From: Lysobacterales bacterium
GTDB taxonomy: Bacteria; Pseudomonadota; Gammaproteobacteria; Xanthomonadales; Xanthomonadaceae
DNA length: 64,000 nucleotides
Direction of reading: 5' to 3'
Assembly (NCBI GenBank): GCA_019510125.1
Contig: JAEKKX010000006.1
Location: 248,001-312,000 of the forward strand
Shown: in pieces, positions 25,093 through 34,730 of the stretch
Numbering within the stretch: the first letter of the stretch is position 1
Layout of the letters: each line of letters opens with the position of its first letter
The notes under the pieces: model-generated
Seen by the model: only the letters and a program-made list of their open reading frames with translations
What the model was told of the DNA's origin: nothing
The model's database searches: none
Made by a program: the position numbers and the translations under genes

Positions 25093-26406
25093 TCAGCGCG
25101 TCGGCAGGCTCAGGCTGACCCACAGCCCGCCGCCATCGCGGTTCTGCAGGGCGATGCGGCCGCCGTGGGCCTCGATGATGTCGCGGCACAGCGCCAGGCC
25201 GAGGCCGGTGCCGTGGCGCTTGGTCGAATAGAACGGCAGCAGCGCCTGCGCCAGCACCGCCTCGCTCATGCCGCTGCCGCGGTCGAGGATGTCGATGCGC
25301 CAGGCGTCGGGCTGCCGGCGCAGCCGCAGTTGCACGTCCTCCGGCGCCGAGCCGGACTCGTGCGCGTTCTTCACCAGGTTCAGCAGGGTCTGCTCGAATT
25401 GCGCGGCGTCGGCCTGGAACACGCCGTCGCCGTGCTGGCCGTCCCACGCGAATTCGACCTGGCTGCGCAACTGCGCGAGGAAGCGCGACCATTCCAGCGG
25501 CTGCAGGCGCGGCGCTGGCAGCTTCGCGAAGCGCGCGTAGTCGCGGATGAAGCCTTCCAGATGCCGCGCGCGCTCCTCGATCGTCGCCAGCGCGTTCGGG
25601 ATGCGTTCGAGCTGGCCGCGCCGCATCAGCTCGGCGCTGGAATGCGCGAGCGAGGCGATCGGCGCCAGCGAATTGTTGAGTTCGTGGCTGATCACCCGGA
25701 TCACCTTCTTCCAGGTCTGCACTTCCTGCCGCCGCAGTTCGGCGGTGAGCTGGCGCAGCAGCACCAGTTCGTGGCGGCGGCCGTTGAGGCGGAAGCCGCG
25801 GCGCGAGAGATGGAAGATCTCCTCGTTGTCCTCGTCGCCGACCGCGAAGATGCCGTCGCCGTCGCGCTCGAACGCGTCGCGCAGCGCCTGCGGGGCGCGG
25901 GTGAGCACCGCGTCGAAGGCCTGGCCTTCCAGCCGCCGTCCCTGGCCGAGCAGCTTGCGCGCGGCGAGGTTGCCCAGCACCACGCGCCGGGCGGGGTCGA
26001 GCAGCACCATCGCCACCGGCGTGTTCTGCACCATCGTGTCGAGCAGCAGTTCGCGCTGGACCAGCGACAGCCGCTGCTCGCGCAGCGCCGTGCCGAGCGC
26101 GTTGTGCGCATCGACCAGCTCGGCGAGATCGCGGTCGCGGTCCCAGGCGATGCCAAAGCTGAAGTCGCCGTCGCGATAGCTCGCGACCGTGCCGGCGAGC
26201 GCGCGGAACAGGCCGCGCATCGGCTTGAGCGTGCGCCGCAGCGCGGCGATCGCCAGCAGCGCGGACAGGGTCGAGGCCAGCGCCGCCGCCGCCCACGGCG
26301 TCAGCCAGCGCGCGAGCAGCGTGGTCGCGACCGCGGCGCAGACGACGCCGAGCACCGCCGGAACCCCGATCCGGATCGACAGCGGCCAGCGGCGGAGACG
26401 CGACAT
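25093..26406 (-). CDS. NtrY-like sensor histidine kinase
   Basis: The 437-residue kinase has two N-terminal transmembrane segments (about 10-58), a HAMP-like linker, a PAS-like region (about 120-225), the phosphoacceptor His241 in RVISHELNNSLAPI, and the ATPase N-box NLVKNAHESG with G boxes (RGSGMS, GTGLGLALC). The HELNNSLAPI form of the H-box is typical of NtrY-type kinases paired with NtrC-type regulators. It is the last gene of the minus-strand exporter module; its ATG lies 10 bases after the regulator's stop. The two are a cognate pair by position. The signal sensed is unknown. Confidence 0.87.
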   Translation of the reverse strand: MSRLRRWPLSIRIGVPAVLGVVCAAVATTLLARWLTPWAAAALASTLSALLAIAALRRTLKPMRGLFRALAGTVASYRDGDFSFGIAWDRDRDLAELVDAHNALGTALREQRLSLVQRELLLDTMVQNTPVAMVLLDPARRVVLGNLAARKLLGQGRRLEGQAFDAVLTRAPQALRDAFERDGDGIFAVGDEDNEEIFHLSRRGFRLNGRRHELVLLRQLTAELRRQEVQTWKKVIRVISHELNNSLAPIASLAHSSAELMRRGQLERIPNALATIEERARHLEGFIRDYARFAKLPAPRLQPLEWSRFLAQLRSQVEFAWDGQHGDGVFQADAAQFEQTLLNLVKNAHESGSAPEDVQLRLRRQPDAWRIDILDRGSGMSEAVLAQALLPFYSTKRHGTGLGLALCRDIIEAHGGRIALQNRDGGGLWVSLSLPTR

Positions 26407-26416
26407 CGGCACGCGT

Positions 26417-27757
<1,341 letters not shown>

Positions 27758-27790: not shown

Positions 27791-29032
27791 TCAGACGCTG
27801 CGCGTCGCCACCGCCGGCGGCACCGCCGCCGCGCGACGTGCGGGACCGAACACCGCGACCTGTCCCAGCAACCACAGCGCGATCGCGCCGGCCGGCAGGT
27901 AGGTCCACGGCAGCCGCTCCAGTTCGTAGTGCGACATCAGCAACTGGTTCAGGCCGTAGGCGCCGAGCATGCCGAGGGTGATGCCCAGCGTCGCCAGCAG
28001 GAAGTTCTCGGTCTGGAAGTAGCGCAGGATCTGGCCGCGGGTCGCGCCCAGCGCCCGGCGCACGCCGATCTGCTTGGTGCGCTGCTGCACCCAGAAGCTG
28101 GCGAGCCCGACGATGCCCAGCGCGGTGATGAACAGCAGCCCGATGCAGACCGCCGCCAGCAGCCAGGCCATCGTGCGCGGGGCCTGGTAGAACTCGCCGC
28201 GCAGCTCCTCCATGGTCTTGGTGTTGTCGTCGAGGATGATCCGGTTGGGGCCGTTGGCGCGCAGCGCCGCGACCGCGGCCTTGAGCACCTCGTCGCGGCG
28301 GCCCGGCTCGGTGCGCAGCACGTAGTTGCCGCCCACGTCGTAGTGCGGTCGGACCGGCAGCACCATCGAGTATTCGCGTGCGTCCGGCCCACCCTGCATG
28401 CTGGGGCGGACCAGATGGTCGAGCACGCCGATGATCCGGGTCGGCTCCGAGCCCCAGACGTAGATCGCCTTTCCGAGCGCCTTCTCCGCCGGCGTGTCCG
28501 GGAACAGCTTCTCGGCCATCTTCCGGGTGATGATCACGGCGGGGTAGCGGACCGGGCCTTCGGCCTTCTCCACCGTGTCCCACTCCAGGTATTCGTCGGG
28601 CGTGAAATTGCGGCCCGCGATCAACTGCAGCCCGAACGTGTCGATGAACTGGTCCTCGGCCATGTAGTTGCTGGCGTTCAGCGTCGGCCGTTCCTGGTCC
28701 GGCTTGAGGCTCACGCCGCTGTTCCAGGAGGAATTCACGAACGGCACCTGGTTGGTCACGGTGGCGGCCTTGACCCCGGGCAGGCCGCGCAGCGAGGCGA
28801 GGTCGGTGCGGGTGAGCGCGGCGGCGTTGTCGTTCGACCCGATGCTGGTGATCTGCACGCGCACCAGTTCGTTTTCGGCGAGGCCGCTGGTTTCGCGGAC
28901 CTGGCGGATGCGGTCGCCGATCATGAACAGGGCGTTGCAGATGATCGCGCAGGTCATGGCGATCTCCAGCACGATCAGGGACGCCGCGGTCTTGTGGCGC
29001 ATCAGGGTGGAGAGGATGGGGCGGAGTTCCAT
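27791..29032 (-). CDS. ABC transporter permease, MacB/FtsX type (second copy)
   Basis: The 413-residue permease has one N-terminal transmembrane helix (AASLIVLEIAMTCAIICNALF), a large periplasmic domain (about 50-280), and three C-terminal helices with the FtsX motif VQQRTKQIGVRRALGATRGQI. This is the fold of MacB-like exporters, which push substrates from the periplasm rather than across the inner membrane. A separate ATPase gene and an adaptor are in the same operon. It is paralogous to the next permease and likely forms a heterodimer with it. Confidence 0.87.
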   Translation of the reverse strand: MELRPILSTLMRHKTAASLIVLEIAMTCAIICNALFMIGDRIRQVRETSGLAENELVRVQITSIGSNDNAAALTRTDLASLRGLPGVKAATVTNQVPFVNSSWNSGVSLKPDQERPTLNASNYMAEDQFIDTFGLQLIAGRNFTPDEYLEWDTVEKAEGPVRYPAVIITRKMAEKLFPDTPAEKALGKAIYVWGSEPTRIIGVLDHLVRPSMQGGPDAREYSMVLPVRPHYDVGGNYVLRTEPGRRDEVLKAAVAALRANGPNRIILDDNTKTMEELRGEFYQAPRTMAWLLAAVCIGLLFITALGIVGLASFWVQQRTKQIGVRRALGATRGQILRYFQTENFLLATLGITLGMLGAYGLNQLLMSHYELERLPWTYLPAGAIALWLLGQVAVFGPARRAAAVPPAVATRSV

Positions 29033-29092: not shown

Positions 29093-30394
29093 TTACTGCG
29101 ACTTCAACTGCATCGCCGGCGTGATCTGCATCGCGCGCCAGGCGGGAAGCAGGCCGGCGAGCAGGCTGGCGACGATCGCGAGCACGAACGTGGACAGCAG
29201 CATGCCGATGTCGAGGTGGGCGAGCTTGGCGTAGCTGGCTGGCTGCAGGCGCACCGCCCACAGGCCGAGCAGCGACAGCCCCAGCCCGAGGATGCCGCCG
29301 GCGAGGCCGACCGTCCCCGCTTCCACCAGGCACTGGGTGAAGATCGCCCTGCGCGAGGCGCCCAGCGCGCGGCGCACGCCGATCTCGCCGCCGCGGCGCA
29401 GGAACTTGGCCAGCAGCAGGCCGACGGTGTTGACCAGGCAGACCAGCAGGAAGCCGAAGCCCAGCCACATCTGCACGACCACGTCGTTGGGCACGACCTT
29501 GTTGTAGTCCAGCCACGCCATGACGTCGCGCAGGCGAACGTTGGCGGGCCGCTCGAATCGGCCCGCGCTGCGCTGTTGGTTGGAATAGTTGACCAGGTAG
29601 TCCTTGTATTCCGCCGCCGCCTGCGCGCTGTCCAGTTGCACCCAGTACTGGATCCACACGCACGGGGCGTTGAGGTCGGTGGCGTCGGCGCTGGTGTCGC
29701 CCCAGCAGTTCATGCTGCCGCTGCGGCTCATCTCCAGGTCGCGCGAGGTCGAGAACGGCAGGAACACGTCCTCCAGCGTGCCGAAGCGGTCGGTGTTCAT
29801 GTCGTAGAAGCGCGGCGTCGGCCGCCACTCGTCGATCACGCCGGCCACGGTGAAGTCGGTCTTGTCCAGCCGGATCTGCTTGCCGACGCTGTCGCCGCCG
29901 GCGAACAGCTTGTCGTTCAGCGCCTTGGAAATCACCGCCACGCGGGCGCGGGCGTCGTCGTCCTTGGCGGTCCAGCCGTGGCCGTAGAGGAACGGCACCT
30001 CGAACATCGGGAAGAAGTCCGCCGAGGTGTAGCGCGAATCGGAGTAGAACGGCGTGAGGCCGGACTGCTGCGGCGTGATGGAGACGCCGCCGCCGGTCAT
30101 CATCGCCTGGCGCTTGCCGCGCTTCTCGCGCAGCAGGGTTTCGGCGTCGAAGCGGGTCACCTGGTCCGACGGCTCCTCCCCGGGGCGGTAGCCGGCCTTG
30201 CCCTCCGGGTCGAGCTGCACGTAGAACAGCGTCGAGCTCTTGCCGGGCAGCGGGTCGCCGGACAGCACGTGGAACACCGTCAGCGTGGTCATGCAGGCGC
30301 CGATGCCCATCGCGATCGCCAGCACCATCAGCGTCGTCAGCGCCTTGTTGCGCTTGAAGCTGCGCAGGGCGAGGTTGAAGTAGTAACCGAACAT
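29093..30394 (-). CDS. ABC transporter permease, MacB/FtsX type (first copy)
   Basis: This 433-residue permease has the same layout as its downstream neighbour: N-terminal helix (ALTTLMVLAIAMGIGACMTTL), periplasmic domain, and three C-terminal helices with FLRRGGEIGVRRALGASRRAI. It lies 10 bases downstream of the ATPase gene, implying coupled translation. The two permeases differ clearly in their periplasmic domains, so a heterodimeric transporter is more likely than redundancy. Substrate unknown. Confidence 0.87.
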   Translation of the reverse strand: MFGYYFNLALRSFKRNKALTTLMVLAIAMGIGACMTTLTVFHVLSGDPLPGKSSTLFYVQLDPEGKAGYRPGEEPSDQVTRFDAETLLREKRGKRQAMMTGGGVSITPQQSGLTPFYSDSRYTSADFFPMFEVPFLYGHGWTAKDDDARARVAVISKALNDKLFAGGDSVGKQIRLDKTDFTVAGVIDEWRPTPRFYDMNTDRFGTLEDVFLPFSTSRDLEMSRSGSMNCWGDTSADATDLNAPCVWIQYWVQLDSAQAAAEYKDYLVNYSNQQRSAGRFERPANVRLRDVMAWLDYNKVVPNDVVVQMWLGFGFLLVCLVNTVGLLLAKFLRRGGEIGVRRALGASRRAIFTQCLVEAGTVGLAGGILGLGLSLLGLWAVRLQPASYAKLAHLDIGMLLSTFVLAIVASLLAGLLPAWRAMQITPAMQLKSQ

Positions 30395-30404
30395 GGCGGT
30401 GTCC

Positions 30405-31133
30405 TCAGGCCGACGCCGGGGCGCCGGCCTCGGCCGAGCGGGCGACGCGGACCAGGCTCGGCTCCACCGACAGGTCGGTGGCCATGCCGTCGACGATGTG
30501 CACGTTGCGCTGCGCGCGCGCCGCGAGCTCGGGATCGTGGGTGACCATGATGATGGTGGTGCCGCGGCTGTTGATGTCCTCCAGCAGTTCCATCACGCCG
30601 CGCGCCATCTGCGAGTCGAGGTTGCCGGTCGGTTCGTCCGCGAGCAGCAGGCGCGGGCTGCCGGCCAGGGCGCGTGCGATGGCCGCGCGCTGCTGCTGGC
30701 CGCCGGACAGCTCGGCCGGGAAGTGCTTCATGCGCGAGCCCAGCCCGACCTTGGCCAGCGCGTCCTCGATGCGGGATTTGCGCTCGGGCGCGGACATGCC
30801 GCGGTAGCGCAGCGGCACGTCGACGTTGTCGAACAGGTTGAGGTCGGGGATCAGGTTGAAGCCCTGGAAGATGAAGCCGATCTTCTGGTTGCGCAGCCTG
30901 CTGCGCGCGTCGTCGGACAGGCCCTTGACGTTCTGGCCGTCGAGCACGAACTCGCCGCCGGTGAAGGTTTCCAGCAGGCCCGCGATGTTGAGGAAGGTGG
31001 TCTTGCCCGAACCGGACGGCCCGGTGACGGCGACGAACTCGCCTTCCTTCACGTGCAGGTCCAGCGACCGCAGCGCGTGGGTTTCGACCAGTTCGGTGTG
31101 ATAGACCTTGGTGACGCCTTGCATGTGCAACAT
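30405..31133 (-). CDS. ABC transporter ATP-binding protein (MacB/LolD type)
   Basis: The 242-residue ATPase has Walker A GPSGSGKT, a Q-loop in GFIFQGFNLIPDLNLFDNV, the signature LSGGQQQRAAIARAL, Walker B LLLADEPTGNLDS and the switch His in MVTHD. The sequence is of the LolD/MacB class that works with FtsX-type permeases. Its C-terminal extension of about 20 residues after the H-loop is not unusual. The ATG at 31131-31133 was chosen because it begins MLHMQGVTKVYHTE at the normal family start; longer in-frame extensions run through the preceding small ORF. Confidence 0.93.
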   Translation of the reverse strand: MLHMQGVTKVYHTELVETHALRSLDLHVKEGEFVAVTGPSGSGKTTFLNIAGLLETFTGGEFVLDGQNVKGLSDDARSRLRNQKIGFIFQGFNLIPDLNLFDNVDVPLRYRGMSAPERKSRIEDALAKVGLGSRMKHFPAELSGGQQQRAAIARALAGSPRLLLADEPTGNLDSQMARGVMELLEDINSRGTTIIMVTHDPELAARAQRNVHIVDGMATDLSVEPSLVRVARSAEAGAPASA

Positions 31134-31186: not shown

Positions 31187-31393
31187 TCAGCCGATGCGGA
31201 AGCGCGAGGGCAGCGTCGGCGCCGGCGCGAAGCCGCCGTCGCGGTGCGGGCGATGCGCCTCGGCGTCGTTCGCCGAGGGCGCGAAGGCGACGGTGTGCAG
31301 CGGCGGCGGCCGGCGCTGCACCGCCGCGGCAAGCGCGTCGGCGTTCCAGTGCAGGGCGAGGGGGAAGGCGTCGTGGGCGGTGGACATGGTCAT
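31187..31393 (-). CDS. Small hypothetical protein in the exporter operon
   Basis: I do not recognise this 68-residue product. Its ATG overlaps the stop of the adaptor gene (ATGA), and nearly all its codons end in G or C, as in the flanking genes, which supports real translation. It has no transmembrane helix or obvious signal peptide and no cysteine. It is rich in His (six), Pro and Ala, with central RRPPPLHTVAFAPSA and C-terminal PAPTLPSRFRIG. An alternative start (MSTAHD) lies two codons later. It could be an exporter accessory peptide or a substrate; nothing in the sequence decides this. Confidence 0.6.
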   Translation of the reverse strand: MTMSTAHDAFPLALHWNADALAAAVQRRPPPLHTVAFAPSANDAEAHRPHRDGGFAPAPTLPSRFRIG

Positions 31394-32658
31394 TCTCCGG
31401 TGATGCGGATGCGTTCGGCGTCGCCGAACCGGTCGGCGCCGGAGACCACGATGCGGTCCCCCGGCTTGGCGCCATCGAGGATTTCAACGGCGGCGAGGCT
31501 GCTGACGCCGGTGCGGATGCGGCGTTTCACCGCGGTGTCGCCGTCCATGACGTAGACGGCGCCGCCGCCCTGCTCCAGGAACGGGCCACGTTCGACCATC
31601 AGCACGTCGCGCCGGGTGTCGAGCACGATCCGCGCGCTGAGGCGCTGGTTCTGGCGCAGGCCCGGCGGCTGGCGGTCCTTGAAGCGCAGGCGGGCGGCGA
31701 CTTCGCCGTTCACCACTTCCGGCGATACGGCGGAGATCGACGCGGCGTAGGTGTCGCCGGTGGCGGAGATCTCCGCCGGGATGCCGATGCCGAGGTCGCG
31801 GGCGAAGCTCTCGGGCACCTTGATCTCGACCTCGAACACCGACAGGTCGACAACGCTGAGCACCGGCGCGTTGTCGGCGACGTTCGCGCGCTGCGCGATC
31901 ATCACCTGGCCGACCTGGCCGTCGAACGGCGCGCGCAGCGACAGCGCCTCCACCTGCCGGCGCAGCTCGTCGACCACGGCGCGCTGGCGGTCGGCCTGCA
32001 GCCGCTTGTTGCGGCTGTCGAGATCAGCGCCGCGGCCCTGCAGCGCGAACTCCTGCTGCGCGGCGGCGAGCGCGAGTTCCGATTTCCTGAGCGCGTCCTG
32101 GGCGCGGGCGACGTCGATCTGCGCGACCGCGCCGCCGTCGAACGCGCGTTTGTTGCGTTCCAGGTCGCGGGCCGCCGCGGTGCGGTCCACCGTGGCCTGG
32201 TCGAGCTGCTTGCGCGCGTTGGCGCGGGTGAGCGCGCCGTCGAGCGTCGCGCGGGAGGTCTCGGCCTCGAGGCCGGCGAGGGTCGCCTCCTCCTGCGCGA
32301 GCCGGCTGCGCAGCTCGGGGCTGTCGATCTCGGCGAGCACCTGGCCCTGCTTCACCGCGTCGCCGGCGACCACCTTCAGGGTGACGGTGCCGGCGGAGAT
32401 CGCGTACAGCGTGGGGCTGTTCGCCGAGATCACCCGGCCTTCGGCCGACAGGTCGCGGACCAGGTCGCCGCGGCGCACTTCGGCGATGCGCACCCGCGCG
32501 GCGTCGACCGAGCGGCTGCCGCCGCGCCAGGCCGACACGGTGGCTGCCGCCGCGATCGCGACGCCGAGCGCGACGATCACCGGCAGGCGCCAGCGTCGGC
32601 GGGCGCGGGAGGAGGGGGTGAGGACGGTGTCCTGGGCGGCGGTGTCGCGAATGGACAT
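31390..32658 (-). CDS. HlyD/MacA-type periplasmic adaptor (membrane fusion protein)
   Basis: The 422-residue protein has one N-terminal membrane anchor (LPVIVALGVAIAAAATVSAW), a barrel-sandwich/lipoyl segment with APFDGQVGQVMIAQRANVAD, a long coiled coil (about residues 120-230, heptad-rich Ala/Leu/Arg/Glu), and a C-terminal beta-barrel region. It should bridge the ABC permeases to an outer-membrane channel encoded elsewhere. First gene of the operon. The ATG at 32656-32658 is preferred over one 60 bases upstream because the sigma-54 promoter at 32691-32707 would lie inside that longer frame. Confidence 0.87.
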   Translation of the reverse strand: MSIRDTAAQDTVLTPSSRARRRWRLPVIVALGVAIAAAATVSAWRGGSRSVDAARVRIAEVRRGDLVRDLSAEGRVISANSPTLYAISAGTVTLKVVAGDAVKQGQVLAEIDSPELRSRLAQEEATLAGLEAETSRATLDGALTRANARKQLDQATVDRTAAARDLERNKRAFDGGAVAQIDVARAQDALRKSELALAAAQQEFALQGRGADLDSRNKRLQADRQRAVVDELRRQVEALSLRAPFDGQVGQVMIAQRANVADNAPVLSVVDLSVFEVEIKVPESFARDLGIGIPAEISATGDTYAASISAVSPEVVNGEVAARLRFKDRQPPGLRQNQRLSARIVLDTRRDVLMVERGPFLEQGGGAVYVMDGDTAVKRRIRTGVSSLAAVEILDGAKPGDRIVVSGADRFGDAERIRITGE

Positions 32659-32690
32659 GGCAGTGGAATGCTTGGGTTCGCGGTAATGAA

Positions 32691-32707
32691 TGCAAACCTC
32701 GTGCCAA
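32691..32707 (-). promoter_or_regulatory. Sigma-54 (-24/-12) promoter of the exporter/two-component operon
   Basis: On the minus strand this reads TTGGCACGAGGTTTGCA, matching the sigma-54 consensus TTGGCACG-N4-TTGC at every fixed position, with GG and GC in the invariant -24 and -12 sites. Transcription would begin near 32680, giving a leader of about 22 bases before the adaptor ATG. The operon encodes an NtrC-type activator, which makes a functional sigma-54 promoter here much more likely than chance. Confidence 0.8.
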
Positions 32708-32750
32708 CTACAAGGCAATGATTTTCAATGGTTTTTTGTCGGAGGTCGGC

Positions 32751-32784
32751 TGTCCGTCCGCTGTCCGGACGTGTCCGCGCGGAC
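32751..32784. promoter_or_regulatory. Three phased TGTCCG repeats, candidate activator binding sites
   Basis: TGTCCG occurs at 32751, 32762 and 32772, at 11- and 10-base steps, i.e. on one face of the helix. The last two are embedded in palindromes GTCCGGAC (32763-32770) and GTCCGCGCGGAC (32773-32784). They lie about 70-105 bases upstream of the predicted sigma-54 start, the usual place for enhancer sites of NtrC-type regulators. The sites also lie upstream of glmS on the other strand. Confidence 0.5.
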
Positions 32785-32888
32785 GCCCGCGGCGGGTTTC
32801 GTCGTTACACTAGCCGCCCTCGGAGACGCCGCCCGCCGGGTCGTCCGCCGCCCGTCCATCCGTCCAACCCTGAGAGGACTCCAGACCC

Positions 32889-34730
<1,842 letters not shown>

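Follow-up and report, generated by a model that had tools for sequence, protein, structure and literature searches.

Related regulators and exporters

At the glmY promoter of Enterobacteriaceae, QseF is associated with three TGTN12ACA sites and IHF, as described in the accessible part of PMC6075780. The exporter operon considered here lies in a 64,000-nucleotide stretch of DNA that was analyzed as a whole (the window), and it resembles QseF/GlrR, as presented in that part of PMC6075780, in combining an NtrC-type regulator with a putative sigma-54 promoter, an IHF-like site and several TGT...ACA sites. The same portion of PMC6075780 also ties QseF/GlrR to glmS, with the small RNA GlmY as the intermediary in that system. 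Unlike the TGTN12ACA sites of QseF in that text (PMC6075780), the paired half-sites here are mostly N2-N4 apart, and the target, unlike that of QseF/GlrR, is an exporter operon. A GlrR-like spacing (TGTCN10GACA) is rejected, since it occurs in 3 of the 123 promoters compared below, and the operon's regulator scores 288.8 against a GlrR/QseF cut-off of 763. It scores 338.9 bits against the NtrC equivalog (TIGR01818), where the cut-off is 558.6. Like NtrC (NR(I)), it has receiver, AAA+ and Fis-type HTH domains; unlike NtrC, it appears to use a different operator, and no link to nitrogen genes was seen.

The exporter itself is related to MacAB-TolC in its MacB_PCD/FtsX permease domains and MacA-like adaptor, and is unlike it in having ATPase and permease as separate genes, two permeases, and a score below the MacA cut-off. 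Against the fused MacB family, with its cut-off of 966 bits, the ATPase reaches 210.1 and the permeases 49.3 and 41.1. The two permeases match positions 7-401 and 411-801 of the 803-position ADOP model (TIGR03434), as two proteins of 169.7 and 191.0 bits rather than the single protein expected above 622.3 bits. The darobactin exporter DarBCD shares the adaptor, the LolD/MacB-like ATPase and MacB-type permease parts, and DarD is the top-scoring family for the operon ATPase; all three equivalog cut-offs lie above the scores obtained (DarD 262.8 of 375, DarC 46.4 of 450, DarB 26.1 of 700). Unlike DarBCD, the operon has two separate permeases, and family searches indicated no peptide precursor or maturation gene within it.

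Sigma-54 promoters have been predicted for ABC transporters with FtsX-like permeases, the class to which the present exporter belongs, in what the accessible part of PMC12316311 terms first evidence, with COG0577 also enriched in gammaproteobacteria. That work, as far as this part of PMC12316311 extends, is a count by gene class; for this operon it names neither a regulator nor additional targets, and gives no enhancer sequence and no register. The accessible portions of PMC3162934 and PMC7280030 give no sign of the operon, and neither promoter nor operon was met in any title or abstract of the literature searched, which was mostly without subscription papers. A kind of system that is known has here an operator, a register and a regulon that appear undescribed in the searchable literature. 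Their interest lies in a specific proposed operator (YGTCC/GGACR at fixed distances upstream of -24) for an NtrC-type regulator without a name in family libraries, and in an operon that occurs in most genera sampled from one family, among them Stenotrophomonas, and also outside that family.

The exporter operon and its candidate control region

Positions 32680-32785 very probably form the region through which sigma-54 controls the exporter operon, and at which the operon's own NtrC-type regulator would act through the half-sites and activate its own synthesis. The features are collected in Table 1.

Table 1. Features of the operon, its candidate control region and the divergent glmS gene (window positions)
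Feature	Position	Strand	Remarks
Sigma-54 -24/-12 element (predicted) TTGGCACGAGGTTTGCA	32691..32707	-	unique in genome; 123/124 orthologues keep the element
IHF-like site AATCATTGCCTTG	32711..32723	-	8/9 fixed bases of WATCAANNNNTTR, read by eye
Candidate enhancer block	32751..32785	-	GGACR starts 49, 53, 60, 70 upstream of TGGCAC
YGTCC half-sites in candidate enhancer block	32751..32785	-	starts 65, 79 upstream of TGGCAC
Periplasmic adaptor (HlyD/RND_mfp type)	31390..32658	-	most orthologues align at the N-terminus
Small open frame, 68 aa	31187..31393	-	start overlaps adaptor stop
ABC ATPase (LolD/MacB/DarD type)	30405..31133	-	DarD is best-scoring family
FtsX/MacB_PCD permease 1, like first ADOP half	29093..30394	-	
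FtsX/MacB_PCD permease 2, like second ADOP half	27791..29032	-	
NtrC-type response regulator	26417..27757	-	receiver D52, AAA+ with GAYTGA, Fis-type HTH
Sensor histidine kinase	25093..26406	-	HATPase_c; HisKA and PAS weak
glmS, divergent	32889..34730	+	-10-like TACACT at 32806-32811

The operon runs from adaptor through ATPase, two permeases and NtrC-type regulator to kinase, with gaps of 256, 10, 60, 33 and 10 bases, and is flanked by glmS, divergent at its start, and glmU, facing its end. Three loci of the same genus have an identical order, again with glmU and glmS, and in these three, frames similar to the small 68 aa frame follow the adaptor. Because of the 256-base gap after the adaptor, a single RNA for the whole operon is uncertain. 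A scan returned no sigma-70 promoter and one terminator, on the other strand and not exceeding shuffles, and the same scan also missed the glmS promoter, which leaves its outcome with little weight.

That the operon ends with an NtrC-family regulator and its kinase, as the first-pass annotation had it, agrees with the two genes found there. The regulator has the features by which NtrC-type proteins are recognized, namely a receiver Asp, Walker A, the GAFTGA loop (which reads GAYTGA) and a Fis-type HTH, and its orthologues retain D52, GAYTGA or GAFTGA, and the helix SRQ[AS][LF]YRR. Paralogous regulators of about 43-45% identity (L195 of the source genome, at G000:C32, with L173 and L174) have GAYTDA or GAFTDA in the loop where it could be aligned; in L195 the regulator and kinase lie amid apparent genes for acyl-carrier and ketosynthase proteins. 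In another genome (G006, loci L140/L259), the two permease types alternate between ATPase and regulator, forming five pairs rather than one.

The predicted sigma-54 promoter

The element TTGGCACGAGGTTTGCA ends 33 bases 5' of the adaptor ATG at 32658, where the first-pass annotation had placed it. It has the GG and GC that sigma-54 promoters conserve at a distance of ten bases, and within it TGGCACGAGGTTTGCA (32706-32691, minus) matches 12 of the 12 fixed bases of the -24/-12 pattern, which would put the start of the operon RNA near 32680 on the minus strand. Sigma-54 itself is encoded in the source genome (PF04552 at G000:C1:121037-121510). Weak -24/-12 matches, with up to 2 mismatches, number 2 in the window against 10.6 expected, a count that is uninformative by itself. 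In the 4.08 Mb genome, TGGCACGN4TTGCW occurs once, at this element (0 in the reversed control), as does GGACAN{20,50}TGGCACGN5TGC (again 0), while the looser TGGCACGN5TGC has 13 sites and 31 in the reversed control. Among these 13, the exporter promoter is the one site with at least two TGTCC/GGACA within 110 nt upstream; two others have a single one in that interval. One of the 13 other than the exporter promoter (L204) precedes a frame that looks glutamine-synthetase-like.

Conservation was followed in the stretches upstream of 124 adaptor orthologues, found by searching 149 genomes of the family (54 genera as sampled). A -24/-12 site of at least 9/12 is present in 123 of the 124, the sole exception being genome G034. 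Two of the 123 sites score 9, 20 score 10, 83 score 11 and 18 score 12, against 7-9 of 12 for the second-best site within the same stretches, and their median distance to the mapped adaptor start is 52 bases. In 109 non-redundant promoters the T, G, G, C and A of -24 and the G and C of -12 are invariant, and T precedes the -12 GC in 99%. The comparison confirms 32691-32707 as a predicted sigma-54 promoter and strengthens the earlier observation.

Half-sites and helical register

Upstream of this element, the TGTCCG copies reported earlier at 32751, 32762 and 32772 are indeed present, and the two said to lie within palindromes do so, the second in GTCCGGAC and the third in GTCCGCGCGGAC. TGTCCG by itself turns up in the window about as often as expected (53 copies against 49.9), as it should if a GC-rich spacer merely held fortuitous repeats beside a sigma-54-like match. 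Such a coincidence has next to no probability in the light of the shuffle controls, the uniqueness of the arrangement in the genome and its conservation also in AT-rich loci.

Exact TGTCC/GGACA has 449 occurrences across the stretches upstream of the 123 promoters, none longer than 150 bases, and 39.5 in shuffles, an 11-fold enrichment. At least one exact copy is found in 120 of the 123 promoters, and 121 have at least three YGTCCG/CGGACR, so that in relatives keeping the operon the half-sites and the -24/-12 element both pass the conservation check proposed for them. Pairs of the form YGTCC-N0..6-GGACR number 157 against 1.5 in shuffles. Spacers of 0, 2, 3 and 4 account for 20, 35, 47 and 57 cases, and a spacer of 1 is almost absent (1 case); this varied arrangement, with four spacers all in use, counts against the reading preferred here.

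Measured from the T of TGGCAC in the 109 non-redundant promoters, clusters lie at 48-51, 57-61 and 69-71 for GGACR and at 55-59, 64-67 and 76-80 for YGTCC, and the window's GGACR register of 49, 60 and 70 is the usual one. Periodicity peaks at 10.0 for GGACR (power 89; null maxima 12.7 for 500 random-offset and 13.5 for 500 jitter trials) and at 11.25 for YGTCC (power 78; null maxima 19.9 and 12.4, likewise for 500 trials each), in nulls that assume independent promoters, an assumption that related genomes violate. The helical phasing claimed from three repeats in one sequence is thereby upheld as a 10 bp period relative to the -24 element.

An IHF-like site and a proposed mechanism

The first-pass annotation passed over an IHF-like site, as it did the wider set of putative targets described below. 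The IHF consensus is WATCAANNNNTTR, with 9 fixed bases, and a candidate match to it lies in the window where it would be looked for, between the putative enhancer and the promoter. Within the last 60 bases before TGGCAC, 85 of the 123 promoters have a match of 8-9/9, compared with 1.3 of 123 in shuffles, and in 81 it stands at offset -17/-18. The remaining 38 score 7/9 or less, and the window itself stops at 8/9, both of which count against the preferred reading.

Comparison with relatives demonstrates joint conservation of the predicted promoter, the candidate half-sites with their register, the IHF-like site and the gene order. From this arrangement we infer a chain of events in which the operon kinase would phosphorylate the NtrC-type regulator, the regulator would bind the phased TGTCC/GGACA half-sites, which lie some 75-105 bases ahead of the RNA start, and IHF would bend the DNA between half-sites and promoter. 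The AAA+ ring would then open sigma-54 polymerase at 32691-32707, and this polymerase would transcribe adaptor, ATPase, two permeases, regulator and kinase, possibly as one RNA. Because the regulator gene lies inside the transcribed operon, the regulator would raise its own level, and positive feedback is proposed on that ground.

The divergent glmS gene

The half-site block lies between two genes and stops about 105 bases short of the glmS ATG, its far end 20 bases from the -10-like TACACT, so that binding in this common intergenic region might instead chiefly regulate glmS, or act on the two genes alike. Exporter-less genomes bear on this directly. From 22 genomes without an intact adaptor beside glmS, 23 glmS loci were collected and four incomplete ones set aside, as were, among the remaining 19, G030 and G014 (adaptor pieces, broken contigs), G034 (operon elsewhere), G136 and G110. 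In 13 of the resulting 14 exporter-less genomes, two of them incomplete (G023 89%, G094 75%), 0-1 TGTCC/GGACA is present in the 300 bases before glmS; G050 has three, a point against the preferred reading. None of the 14 has a -24/-12 site above 9/12 before glmS, and none has an orthologue-level regulator match. The median in 107 exporter loci with adjacent glmS is 4 in the 300 bases next to glmS, and 9 of these loci have at most one exact copy, which counts against the preferred reading.

Conversely, glmS was not found in the stretch at 15 of the 124 adaptor loci (some stretches being short), and 14 of these keep promoter and half-sites, G034 being excepted. Between the glmS -10 and the first half-site lie anywhere from 0 to 219 bases (median 20, middle half 10-30; measurable in 102 of 107), and phase power is 36 against the glmS -10 and 79 against the -24 element; some phase against the former arises because many spacers are similar in length. 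Control of glmS by the half-sites, raised in the first-pass annotation, is therefore not supported, and a predominant or shared role for glmS is very unlikely. The half-sites are best read as belonging to the exporter operon.

In G136 and G110, promoter and half-sites remain before a decayed adaptor, the adaptor start being fused into the kinase frame in G110. At three loci (in G005, G057 and G035), trmL stands in place of glmS directly upstream of the exporter promoter.

Occurrence beyond the family

Among 369 genomes of the class, 11 have a match to the regulator with E no worse than 1e-95, and the source genome and members of its family make up four of these; six of the seven outside-family loci were read, and G406 was left out. 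G512 (same order) and G327, G390 and G485 (same class) have an identical exporter gene order, and they also have half-sites and -24/-12 scores of 12, 12, 10 and 10 of 12; in the AT-rich G390 and G485 the half-sites take the form CGGACA-N9-TGTCCG. G187 and G477 (regulator 44-46% identity) have permease and kinase homologues, and neither an adaptor match nor a promoter/half-site block was found in them, which counts against the preferred reading.

The best named relatives of the regulator (best 5 of at least 80 loci) are in Pseudoalteromonas sp. XMcav2-N, the Burkholderiales-labelled MAG PBB3, Dyella and two Stenotrophomonas, and point to a host of Xanthomonadaceae type. Among these best five, all save Dyella halodurans, whose stretch stops short of the adaptor, have a site of 10 or 11/12 together with half-sites. 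In 75 more distant named loci (L265-L339), three matches combine a site of at least 11/12 with at least two half-sites; those of L271 and L292 look accidental, and that of L307 (Pelomonas) may be a real promoter.

A self-encoded activator accompanied by promoter and half-sites, the central proposal of the first-pass annotation, has thus stood up well, since the three are kept together in four outside-family loci and in Pseudoalteromonas.

A regulator in a genome without detectable rpoN

PF04552 was not found in 3 of the 149 family genomes, namely G034 (99% complete), G014 (82%) and G080 (86%). G034 (loci L112 and L194) keeps the operon, yet has neither a detectable rpoN nor a -24/-12 element. 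In its regulator (56% identity), GAFAGV takes the place of the GAYTGA or GAFTGA seen in nine orthologues with which it was aligned. The stretch upstream of its adaptor retains the half-sites TGTCCACTCGGACA and TGTCCGCGGACA, the latter string having as its sole match in the full texts searched a paper on a human gene. Half-sites that are kept apart from sigma-54 are therefore most likely bound by the regulator, and G034 offers a natural case of an NtrC-type regulator persisting after apparent sigma-54 loss.

These observations weigh on a further reading, in which the promoter is sigma-54-dependent and another enhancer-binding protein occupies the half-sites, with no feedback loop. The genome encodes seven strong sigma-54 activator domains, the operon regulator among them, so that candidates for such a role exist. 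The half-sites are nevertheless absent or single before glmS in 13 of 14 exporter-less genomes, are kept with regulator orthologues outside the family, and persist with the regulator in the rpoN-less G034; these points tie the sites to the operon without strictly singling out the regulator. Another activator at these sites is accordingly improbable, and the operon's own NtrC-type regulator is most likely the protein that would bind them.

Small secreted-looking proteins with a similar predicted promoter

The pattern GGACAN{20,50}TGGCACGN5TGC recurs in at least 120 of the 149 family genomes, often more than once per genome, and 16 extra matches were chosen by eye and read. In 13 of them the next gene encodes a small protein whose start resembles a signal peptide, and trmL comes after it; in at least 7 of these 13 loci trmL is followed by an outer-membrane protein that we take to be Ax21-like. 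Of the others, L191 has a small frame elsewhere, L185 is glutamine-synthetase-like and L181 looks accidental. A trmL match was found in 142 genomes, and 12 of the 30 best trmL loci combine TGGCAC-type sites with half-sites; trmL of the source genome (L231) is without a sigma-54/half-site promoter.

Of the three small proteins compared with family libraries, two had no match; one type of small protein belongs to NCBIfam XAC0231. XAC0231 is present in 35 of the 149 family genomes (20 above cut-off), was not found in the source genome, and had no mention in the full texts searched, mostly without subscription papers. At 29 of 30 XAC0231 loci examined, L353 being the exception, a site of at least 10/12 is accompanied by at least two half-sites, most often with GGACR at 48 and YGTCC at 59-60.

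Exporter and XAC0231 are linked through this shared promoter design, which hints at the purpose of the exporter's control system. It is conceivable, as a tentative proposal, that the regulator governs a small regulon of its own exporter and, in some relatives, secreted small proteins (XAC0231 and the unrelated trmL-side ones) that would be exporter cargo or a kinase signal, and that in G034 it outlived sigma-54 and uses an ordinary promoter. Through the shared promoter design, the question of the exporter's cargo becomes a short testable list.

The small secreted-looking proteins beside trmL (L340-L369, L176-L190) share the sigma-54, IHF-like and half-site layout of the exporter promoter. The XAC0231 family carries repeats like LPTVTVRPSAEQ, and the other short proteins on the trmL side are unrelated to it.
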